NCBI GenBank assembly: GCA_031274555.1
Contig: JAISPZ010000139.1
Coordinates: 1 to 36,080, forward strand
Length of the DNA: 36,080 nucleotides
Direction of reading: 5' to 3'
Origin: Bacteroidales bacterium
GTDB lineage: Bacteria; Bacteroidota; Bacteroidia; Bacteroidales; P3
Of this stretch, positions 492 to 34,644 are shown piece after piece. A program made the translations under genes and the position numbers. Each line of letters begins with the position of its first letter. Position 1 is the stretch's first letter. Below the pieces are notes generated by a model. It had not been told where the DNA came from and made no database searches. It was given only the letters and a program-made list of their open reading frames with translations.

Positions 492-655
492 GCGTTAGGG
501 ATTGAGCGGAAATCCTTTTTGCTGCTGGCGGGTATAGTGAATGGTGGTGGGTTTTATGTTTGTTGATGGGTTGATGTGTCGTGGTGGAATTGGCAAAAAG
601 ATTGGAGTGAAAGCCCGACCCCGCCCACGAGCTTGCGAGGGGGCGGGGGAACGCC
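492..655 (-). repeat. GC-rich interspersed repeat, family 2, copy 1
   Basis: Read on the minus strand, the element starts with a GC hairpin (ccccgccc paired with gggcgggg), then gtcgggctttc and caatctttttgcc, a variable interior of about 70 bp, and ends with aaaggatttccgct and atccctaacgc. The same ordered blocks occur at 5376-5582 and 34403-34644. The 3' flank of each copy is C-rich on the element strand. There is no coding potential. It could be a mobile non-coding element or a structured RNA. Confidence 0.7.
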
Positions 656-696
656 ATAATTCAAATTGCAAACGTGCTCTTTCTTGCGCCTGTACG

Positions 697-837
697 CCTT
701 GCCACAAAAAGCCCTGCACACCTTGCTACAAAAAGCCCAACACGCCTTGCCACAAAAAGCCTCGTACACCTTTGCCACAAAAAGCCCTGCACACCCCGCT
801 GCGAAAGCCCGCACACCCCGCTGCAAAGAGCCGCACG
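697..837. repeat. 24-bp minisatellite next to the dnaE stop
   Basis: Six units run head to tail: 697-720, 721-744, 745-768 (24 bp each), 769-793 (25 bp), 794-815 and 816-837 (22 bp). The consensus is built round ccttgccacaaaaagccc. The first four units are well conserved and the last two drift and become GC-richer. The 25-bp and 22-bp units break any 8-residue repeat frame, which argues against translation. It ends 10 bp from the dnaE stop. Confidence 0.8.
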
Positions 838-5372: not shown

Positions 5373-5375
5373 TAG

Positions 5376-5582
5376 GGCGTGCCCCTGCCTGTGGCTGCCA
5401 CAAAAAAAACACATCACAAAACCCCCACCGTCCAACGTATCGCCACTCACAGCCACAGGCAGGGTCGGGCTTTCCGCTTCAATCTTTTGCCACCGACTAA
5501 AATCAACATCCGCCACAATAAAACATACGCCCTCGTCCAGAAACACCGACGGCAAAAGGATTTACGCTGCAATCCCTCACGC
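5376..5582 (+). repeat. GC-rich interspersed repeat, family 2, copy 2
   Basis: It starts with a 15-bp inverted repeat, arms at about 5383-5397 and 5450-5464 (ccctgcctgtggctg and its complement) with a loop of about 50 bases. Then come gtcgggctttccgct and caatcttttgcc, a variable interior, and aaaaggattta plus gctgcaatccctcacgc. Block order matches copies 1 and 3. The hairpin arms differ in sequence from the other copies yet still pair. Confidence 0.75.
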
Positions 5583-5913
5583 GCCCCACCGTCCGCCCAT
5601 CCCCACCGTCTGTTACTCTCCCCCACCGACAAAGCCCAACACATAAGCCCACCCGCCCCGCCGCCCGCCCGCCGCCCGCGCACCACTCACCACTCTCACA
5701 CACCACCCGCTCACCACTCTCACCCGCCGCCACCCATCCCATCATCCACCCACACCATTCACCGTTCGCAAAGTCCCGCCCCCAACCCACCGCCGACCCG
5801 CCCACCACCACCCAACCCGCCCACCGCCCGCGCACCCGACCCAAAACCCGCCGTCCACCCACACCCACGAGCCCCACCCACACCCGCCCACTGCCTGCCC
5901 GCCCCCCCCCACT
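5583..5913. other. Strand-asymmetric C-rich tract
   Basis: About 330 bp are dominated by C on the plus strand with very little G, made of irregular CCCACC, CCGCCC and CACCC runs and ending in a run of ten C. There is no fixed period. The minus strand is correspondingly G-rich with many GGG and GGGG runs and could form G-quadruplexes. It directly follows the 3' end of the GC-rich interspersed repeat; shorter C-rich tails follow the other copies. Confidence 0.75.
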
Positions 5914-5980: not shown

Positions 5981-6011
5981 TTGCTGTGCCGGAGTTTTTT
6001 TTGTAATTTTG
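5981..6011 (+). promoter_or_regulatory. Bacteroidota-type promoter of the methyltransferase gene
   Basis: TTG at 5981-5983 and TAATTTTG at 6004-6011 match the -33 and -7 (TAnnTTTG) elements with a 20-bp gap. Transcription should begin near 6016, downstream of the TTG codon at 6009. This supports the ATG at 6042 as the start of the gene and leaves a short leader. Confidence 0.65.
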
Positions 6012-6041
6012 CACTCAAACGTCAAATATAAAAATACACAG

Positions 6042-7376
6042 ATGTACACTATAGGTCACATACTGAAAGAAATCAGAGAAGAAAGCGGTTATCCATTACA
6101 AGAAGTCCAACAACAAGTGGACATTGACTTAACTCAATTAAGCAAAATCGAGAATGGAAAACGTTTGCCTACTACCGAGCAACTTCTTAAATTGGCGAAA
6201 TTCTACAACTACGATGAAAAGTCGTTGATAATCCAAAAAGAAAGCGACAAAATAGCATACTCTTTTGAATATCCTGAAATTGCTGTAGAGACATTGCAAG
6301 TTGCAGAGGCAAAAGTGATGTACGGCAAACAGTATTTGCCGATGTTTCAAAATGCGATTTACCGAAAACCTATCTCTTTGGAAAGTCGCCGTTATATTGG
6401 CAGCAAGGCAAAATTAACTGATTGGATTATGGATTTGATAGACAGCGAAACCAAAAATGTAAATACTTTTGCAGATATTTTTGCAGGAACTGCATCTGTT
6501 TCAAATCAGGCAATCCTAAGATATAACAAAGTAATAATCAACGACATATTACATTCCAACAATATCATTTACAAAGGCTTTTTTGAAGCAGGAAAATGGA
6601 ACGAAAGCAAATTGAATAATATTATCACACGATACAATACGCTAAACCCTGACAATCTCGAAGAAAATTATTTTTCCAAGAATTTTGGTGGCAAATTTTA
6701 CGAACACAATATCGCAAAAACTATCGGTTACATAAGACAGGATATTGAAGATAGGAAAAGCAAACTCACAGAAAAAGAGTACAGTATTTTGCTCGCAACG
6801 CTGATTTACAACATTGATAAAATTGCAAATACAGTCGGGCATTTTGATGCTTACATTAAAAAGCCAATAAAACCGCAACCGTTGCATCTGCGTTTAATCA
6901 ATGCGCAAGATTTCGACAATGTGGAAATTTACCGTGAAGATGCTAACAAACTTGCCAAAAAACTTAAATCCGATTTGGTTTATATTGACCCGCCGTATAA
7001 TTCGAGGCAATACTGTTCGGCATACCATTTATTAGAAAATTTGGTTCTGTGGAAAAAACCTGAACTAAAAGGTGTGGCAATGAAGCCTGCAATAATCGAT
7101 GGCAAAAGCGAATATTGTACGAATGATGCAACAACGACTTTTGAGAATTTAGTTAATAATCTAAATACTCATTATATTGTATTGTCCTACAACAATATGG
7201 CGAATAAGGGCAATTGTCGTTCAAATGCAAAAATAAAAGACGAAGATATACACAGAATATTATCAAAAAAAGGTGAATTAAAAGTGTTTTCCCGACCATA
7301 TAAAGCATTTTCAACAGGAAAATCAAATATAGAGAACAATGAAGAACGAATTTTTTTGTGCAAAATAAAAATATGA
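6042..7376 (+). CDS. XRE-type HTH fused to D12-class adenine-N6 DNA methyltransferase
   Basis: The 444-residue protein has two parts. Residues 1-70 form an XRE/HTH_3 domain (IGHILKEIREESG ... LSKIENGKRLP). The rest is a class-alpha (Dam/D12) adenine methyltransferase: RRYIGSK near 115-121, AdoMet-binding DIFAGTAS near 146-153, and catalytic DPPY at 316-319 in VYIDPPYNSRQY. It should transfer a methyl group from S-adenosylmethionine to adenine in a specific site; the site cannot be read from sequence. The frame can start earlier at a TTG (6009), but that codon is inside the promoter, so ATG 6042 is preferred. No restriction enzyme gene is visible on either side, so it looks like an orphan or remnant methyltransferase, perhaps self-regulated through its HTH. 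Confidence 0.9.
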   Translation: MYTIGHILKEIREESGYPLQEVQQQVDIDLTQLSKIENGKRLPTTEQLLKLAKFYNYDEKSLIIQKESDKIAYSFEYPEIAVETLQVAEAKVMYGKQYLPMFQNAIYRKPISLESRRYIGSKAKLTDWIMDLIDSETKNVNTFADIFAGTASVSNQAILRYNKVIINDILHSNNIIYKGFFEAGKWNESKLNNIITRYNTLNPDNLEENYFSKNFGGKFYEHNIAKTIGYIRQDIEDRKSKLTEKEYSILLATLIYNIDKIANTVGHFDAYIKKPIKPQPLHLRLINAQDFDNVEIYREDANKLAKKLKSDLVYIDPPYNSRQYCSAYHLLENLVLWKKPELKGVAMKPAIIDGKSEYCTNDATTTFENLVNNLNTHYIVLSYNNMANKGNCRSNAKIKDEDIHRILSKKGELKVFSRPYKAFSTGKSNIENNEERIFLCKIKI

Positions 7377-19982: not shown

Positions 19983-20082
19983 TAATGCGGATTTGGATTA
20001 AAGTTCTACCTCATGCGCCCCACCACCGACCTCATCTCACCGTCCGTTACTTTCCCTCACAGCTTGACCTTATTCCCCCGCC
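19983..20082 (+). repeat. Partial copy of the GC-rich interspersed repeat (3' end and tail)
   Basis: Compared with 5555-5625, the order ggattt, cctca(c/t)gcgccccacc, then caccgtc(c/t)gttact(t/c)tccc is kept. The 5' hairpin and the gtcgggctttccgct block are absent, so this is a fragment or a strongly diverged copy. Confidence 0.45.
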
Positions 20083-20258
20083 CGCCACTCCACCCTCCGA
20101 CCCACTCCACAGCCAAAACCGCCACTCCCACCCGCCTACCTCATCCTCACCGCCCCAACAAGTGAAGCTGTGGGCGCACCCACATATCCCAAAATGTGCC
20201 GGCAGAGCGGCTGCGCATTTTCTGTGCCCTCAAATTACAAATTTGCCAAAATAATAAC

Positions 20259-34305: not shown

Positions 34306-34402
34306 TTATGGCTGACGCTATTGTTGTTAATGCATAGTATTTGTGCACGTAATGGTTGCTGATTTTCGTAATTCGTAATTGAAAATTCGTAATTGAAATT
34401 TG

Positions 34403-34644
34403 GGCGTTCCCCCGCCCCCTCGCAGGCTCGGGCGCGGGGTCGGGCTATCCGCTGCAAAGTCGCGAGTAAGCGAGGGCAGAGAACGCGCTTGCGCGGACTA
34501 TGCCGAGCGAGAGCGACTTCATTGCGAAGCAATAATCTTTTGCCTCAAAGACAGTCGCCGACACCACTTGACAGAGGACACGAACAGTCTGTCCCCCGCC
34601 AGCTTTATACTTCGCAAAAGGATTTCCGCTGCTATCCCTAACGC
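34403..34644 (+). repeat. GC-rich interspersed repeat, family 2, copy 3, with an extra inner hairpin
   Basis: Begins ggcgttcccccgcccc, pairs ccccgc with gcgggg, and continues gtcgggctatccgctgcaa. At that point about 75 bp not present in copies 1 and 2 intervene, itself hairpin-like (aagtcgc at about 34457 with gcgactt at about 34513). The element then resumes at aatcttttgcc (34531-34543) and ends aaaaggatttccgctgctat with ccctaacgc. Confidence 0.7.

Follow-up and report, generated by a model that had tools for sequence, protein, structure and literature searches.

ERIC elements, which are about 100-130 bp long, are imperfect palindromes of intergenic regions that have conserved ends and an unknown mobiliser. 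The attC sites of integrons are imperfect hairpins whose ends are conserved and whose terminal structure varies, and one strand of them is used. REP and REPIN elements, which are associated with RAYT (Y1) transposases, are short, intergenic and palindromic, are present in tens of copies per genome and fold on one strand. Flavo-1 RNA was described by Weinberg et al. (2010; PMC2864571) and is held in Rfam as RF01705 with the type 'Gene; sRNA'; a review counted it as one of the most abundant small-RNA families in Rfam, without a function (PMC9029176). Here, we analysed a GC-rich repeat in a 36,080-nt stretch of a Bacteroidales genome (contig JAISPZ010000139.1, referred to as the window) and found that it is a member of Flavo-1, on the strand opposite to the one on which it had first been read. 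The family is therefore a known one, and in this lineage it has an extended architecture. A literature search with sequence words returned nothing relevant.

The repeat behaves as a short, intergenic, dispersed element of the REP/ERIC kind: it folds, is maintained by paired changes, is dispersed in tens of copies, stays at fixed sites in different species and exchanges its terminal hairpin. The short length, intergenic position, palindromic form, copy number in the tens per genome and single folding strand of REP/REPIN recur in it, as do the intergenic imperfect palindrome and conserved ends of ERIC and the imperfect hairpin, conserved ends, variable terminal structure and single-strand use of attC. 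Unlike REP/REPIN, Flavo-1 has conserved internal loops and is retained at fixed sites, and two genomes that carry copies, of which one is nearly complete, have no Y1 transposase. It is unrelated to ERIC in sequence and host phylum and differs from it in the exchange of the terminal hairpin. In contrast to attC, it is dispersed and lies outside cassette arrays, and its ends (GGGCGTT..CCCTAACGC here, TAGC..GCTA in the genome G051) do not fit the attC R boxes RYYYAAC / GTTRRRY.

Copies, family membership and architecture

The first-pass annotation had described three full copies and one partial copy, and the three full copies were recovered (Table 1). The common ordered blocks that it had listed are present, but the copy 1 block reads CTTTCACTCCAATC, one base shorter, and the second block of copy 3 is interrupted by an insertion of about 79 nt. 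The perfect complementarity of the copy 2 stem arms, CCCTGCCTGTGGCTG and CAGCCACAGGCAGGG, was borne out, and a CCCCGCCC-type stem is present in both copies 1 and 3. The partial copy, which had been placed at about 19983-20082, retains the 3′ end (CCTCATGC) and the C-rich tail but lacks the hairpin and body. It aligned to the tail of copy 2 with a score of 79, compared with 46 for the best of 300 shuffles, and was not matched by the Flavo-1 model at E values up to 5. Genome-wide, two block patterns produced 63 and 67 hits and their reversed controls none, so that the repeat exceeds chance.

Table 1. Coordinates of the repeat copies and of the copy 2 features within the window
Feature	Position	Strand	Remarks
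Copy 1	492-655	-	RF01705 hit at 489-624 on the + strand; 35.8 bits, under the cut-off
Copy 2	5376-5582	+	closing stem starts at 5375
Copy 3	34402-34644	+	nested insert of ~79 nt within left block, about 34457-34534
Copy 4 (partial)	20008-20140	+	3′ end and C-rich tail only
Flavo-1 (RF01705) match, copy 2	5459-5589	-	46.6 bits, E 3.9e-7
Closing stem, 5′ half GGGCGTG	5375-5381	+	pairs with CACGCGCCC at 5578-5586
Extra side hairpin	5383-5464	+	arms 5383-5397 and 5450-5464; absent from Rfam model
Left conserved block GTCGGGCTTTCCGCTTCAATC + T4	5464-5488	+	
A4 + right conserved block GGATTTACGCTGCAATCCCTCACGC	5554-5582	+	
C-rich tail	5583-5720	+	common to remnant at 20008-20140

The likeness to blocks of other Bacteroidota genomes, which the first-pass annotation had pointed out without naming the element, was correct and is explained by Flavo-1. 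With the RF01705 gathering score of 42 bits, copy 2 passes the cut-off and copy 1 does not, while copy 3 was missed by the model, probably because its insert splits the left block. About 60 copies in the genome of the window (2.76 Mb, 157 contigs, 78% complete) exceed this cut-off. The main stem of RF01705 and its conserved GAUUG/AGCGGAAA blocks are present and base-paired, and the core hairpin, the GAUUG..AGCGGAAAUCC / AAAAGAUUG..AGCGGAAAGC blocks and the phylum are those of the described RNA. In addition, this lineage carries a closing stem, a basal side hairpin, a long C-rich interior and a tail; the closing stem and the side hairpin both lie outside the Rfam model. On the strand first read, the closing stem GGGCGTT is followed by the side hairpin, GTCGGGCTTTCCGCTGCAATC, T4-6, the interior, A4-6, GGATTTCCGCTGCAATCCC and TAACGC. 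Copy 2 folded at -89.7 kcal/mol (z -3.6), the side hairpin being a long stem of that structure. The stability of copy 1 was not above background (z -0.2), which makes single-sequence folds weak evidence.

Other sequences were noted within and around the copies. The 79-nt hairpin-like insert of copy 3 (AAGTCGCGAG...GAGCGACTTCATTGCGAAGCAATA) occupies the same left-block point in loci L083-L086, and two Flavobacterium loci (L288, L294) carry unrelated inserts at that point. On the strand first read, 12 nt past the right block, 73 of 207 cases (L148-L267, L308-L387) have a TTTTCATAAGAA-like motif that lies outside the Rfam model, compared with a background of 13 out of 190, and the spacing is exactly the same in 50 of the 73. 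At window positions 660-800, short near-repeats of a gccacaaaaagccc unit occur in the gap that separates copy 1 from the end of a dnaE-like gene. The gene adjoining copy 2 (6009-7376) resembles, by eye only, a D12-type adenine methyltransferase with an N-terminal helix-turn-helix-like region.

The genome of the window presented 97 Flavo-1 matches at E ≤ 1 and the only sampled congener 2, and no match was obtained in the other 35 genomes of the family; such a load of about 100 copies in one genome, with most relatives having none, distinguishes this lineage from the described RNA. Elsewhere in the order, one distant genome had 17 matches and two others 1 each. Across the phylum, 59 out of 392 genomes contained matches, mostly in one genus, which the named loci indicate to be Flavobacterium, and in its relatives, and individually counted genomes held 6 to 106 copies each. 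In the genome G491, copies at five rRNA operons (L310, L311, L313, L324 and L325) lie about 660 nt upstream of the 16S rRNA genes, in the opposite orientation to the rRNA; in G282 and G457, copies near contig ends may also be upstream of rRNA operons. Spread by phages or plasmids was considered as well, and plasmid, phage and viral-contig records gave no matches; for plasmids and phages this absence is weak, because those collections contain few Flavobacterium entries.

Paired changes and the folding strand

The proposal that differing arms which still pair reflect selection on a structure, in RNA or single-stranded DNA, was supported by 71 copies of this genome and more than 160 elements of other species. 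The T-run and the A-run were equal in length in 75 out of 75 scored copies (4/4 in 15, 5/5 in 31 and 6/6 in 29). The closing stem was GCGTT/AACGC in 54 copies, GCGTG/CACGC in 7, GCATT/AATGC in 6 and GCGTA/TACGC in 1, with 3 mismatched, and the side hairpin presented more than 20 different arm pairs, nearly all complementary (for example, CCTTTGTTTGC/GCAAACAAAGG and CCCTTTTTTGC/GCAAAAAAGGG). Covariation was assessed with an R-scape-like, tree-based null written for this analysis. The ten top-scoring of 2080 column pairs all fell within the structure; one pair was far past the null (80.1, E about 0), but E was already about 1 or higher for the next pairs, which limits the significance of individual pairs. 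In an alignment of 161 Flavobacterium-type elements, the consensus energy was -41.95, compared with -10.75 (sd 2.71) for column shuffles (alifold z -11.5), and one pair appeared as AU in 117 elements, UA in 18, GC in 16 and CG in 4, with no wobble. Many orthologous copies in two related genomes differed by ordinary paired substitutions, and such in-place changes could come partly from gene conversion between copies. The outcome that would have spoken against the proposal, with neither covariation above background nor polymorphism of position, was not obtained.

Wobble mismatches were then used to distinguish the strands. Among 146 distinct terminal segments, 28 G.U mismatches were counted on the Flavo-1 strand and 4 on the other, which corresponds to a p of about 2e-5 for independent sequences, although these are related and not fully independent. 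The ratio was about 24:4 when a family sharing C.A at position 5 was counted once, and one sub-variant position showed the opposite direction (32 cases). Since a double-stranded cruciform would give equal wobbles, this asymmetry indicates that one single strand folds. The folding strand is the Flavo-1 strand, which is the minus strand at copy 2, and RNA and single-stranded DNA are each compatible with it. In Flavobacterium, many different stems carry two conserved tips on this strand, the pentaloops GGGUU and UCUUU.

Fixed sites and exchanged tips

In the congener, the element is missing at the dnaE end and the dapA start, which are orthologous to the neighbourhoods of copies 1 and 2; the genes beyond differ, so this is an absence at a rearranged site and not a clean empty site. 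For the comparison of target-site duplications, flanks at unoccupied sites were too diverged for junctions to be defined. Flavobacterium loci with the same neighbours had blocks 96-100% identical (medians), flanks 53-71% and the terminal loop 58%, with the block values biased because an exact block pattern had served to retrieve these loci. In an unbiased sample of the genus, the site that separates kdpC from a porin gene was occupied in 12 out of 12 closest orthologues, by the element as such or by a version that is decorated or truncated. At this site, the terminal hairpin was swapped while the blocks and nearby flanks were almost constant, the tip types being GTGCCGAACCCCGGCAC, GTGTCTCGTTAAAGAAACGAGACAC, CCTGGCTAAAGAAGCCAG, (A/G)CTTTTTAAAGAAAAAAG(T/C) and GTGTCCGCCGCGGCGGAC. 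Mapped on the flanking-gene tree, these types required 15 changes, compared with a mean of 13.5 for shuffled labels, and hence had no phylogenetic signal. Selection clearly maintains the folded shape even as the hairpin tips are swapped. We found no description of this combination of site retention and tip exchange for Flavo-1 in the literature searched.

In L278-L281 and L289, small palindromes such as TCCCGAAGCTTCGGGA lie inserted within Flavo-1 loops and within another dispersed hairpin (CCTAACAGGTTT..AAACCTGTTAGG), suggesting that they are mobile mini-hairpins targeting hairpin loops. At the kdp site, the element is present in L278-L281, where hairpins have been inserted into it or replaced.

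The pairing might also be kept by mutation instead of selection, with quasi-palindrome correction by template switching and gene conversion perfecting the stems and swapping the tips. Wholesale exchange of tips with no phylogenetic signal, unusually perfect stems and the insertion of small hairpins in loops would all fit such a process. However, the bulged base, the pentaloops and the internal loops with their mismatches are all conserved, although such a process should remove them, and it predicts no strand asymmetry of wobbles, so we consider it an improbable account of the structure.

Genomic context and the nature of the element

Copies lay between tandem, convergent and divergent genes at near-background proportions and on either strand, and no preference for gene orientation was found. 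No replication-strand bias was detected in four single-contig genomes. Around copy 2, a consensus scan revealed neither a promoter nor a terminator, and no intrinsic-terminator pattern. RNA-seq of F. psychrophilum placed Flavo-1 hits sense and antisense to transcripts alike and many outside transcripts, and several copies coincided with structured 5′ regions (PMC9723704). Taken together, the lack of a strand rule relative to genes or replication, of a promoter and of a terminator at copy 2, along with the RNA-seq data, makes it doubtful that Flavo-1 simply consists of stand-alone small RNA genes, with every copy transcribed and acting in trans. The Rfam type, the wobble asymmetry and the conserved pentaloops agree with such genes, and we still regard this explanation as unlikely, with the evidence here pointing to a dispersed intergenic element and not to single sRNA genes. 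A cis-acting role in mRNA, as a bidirectional terminator, a 3′ stabiliser or a 5′ regulator of the neighbouring gene, would suit the intergenic position, the F. psychrophilum copies at structured 5′ regions and the G491 copies upstream of 16S rRNA genes. Yet the three kinds of gap are occupied near background in both orientations and copy 2 has no terminator pattern, which leaves this role with a slim chance.

Candidate mobilisers were also sought. The terminal inverted repeats expected of MITEs are present (GCGTT/AACGC and variants, with TAGC/GCTA-type ends in other genomes). An autonomous version enclosing a gene was not found, as no gene-separated left and right halves appeared among the loci examined and the own-genome pattern lists. 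No PF01797 (Y1_Tnp) domain was detected in the genome of the window (78% complete) or in G051 (98% complete, 17 copies). Dispersal, intergenic location, a single folding strand and lineage-specific expansion are all what would be expected of REP-type non-autonomous DNA whose hairpin, once single-stranded, is recognised by a Y1 transposase (RAYT or IS200/IS605-like). Movement of this kind is nevertheless very unlikely, as PF01797 is missing from these two genomes yet present in several with 0-1 Flavo-1 copies, and positional retention over long divergence is unlike decaying products of transposition.

We give about an even chance to the explanation that Flavo-1 is an intergenic, REP-like element that is bound to the chromosome and functions as a folded single strand, and is not a classical sRNA gene. 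The Flavo-1 strand, once single-stranded as RNA or DNA, folds into a rod with a closing stem, an optional side hairpin and a main stem interrupted by two conserved internal loops, continued by a T/A helix whose two runs match exactly in length and by a terminal hairpin that can be replaced and in Flavobacterium ends in a GGGUU or UCUUU pentaloop. A host protein may read the conserved loops once the strand is folded, new copies would arise inside the chromosome by some route, and tips may be exchanged through recombination between copies or insertion of small hairpins. A more specific version is tentative and somewhat doubtful: that this family, filed as a small RNA, is a chromosome-bound folded-strand element at fixed intergenic sites, whose tip is a cassette swapped between copies so fast that it has lost all phylogenetic signal, whereas the remainder of the element is constant. 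Altogether, the lack of a strand rule, the fixed sites, the patchy presence among close relatives and the interchangeable tips suggest that Flavo-1 may be misfiled, and they advise caution in that a covarying Rfam motif need not be an sRNA gene.
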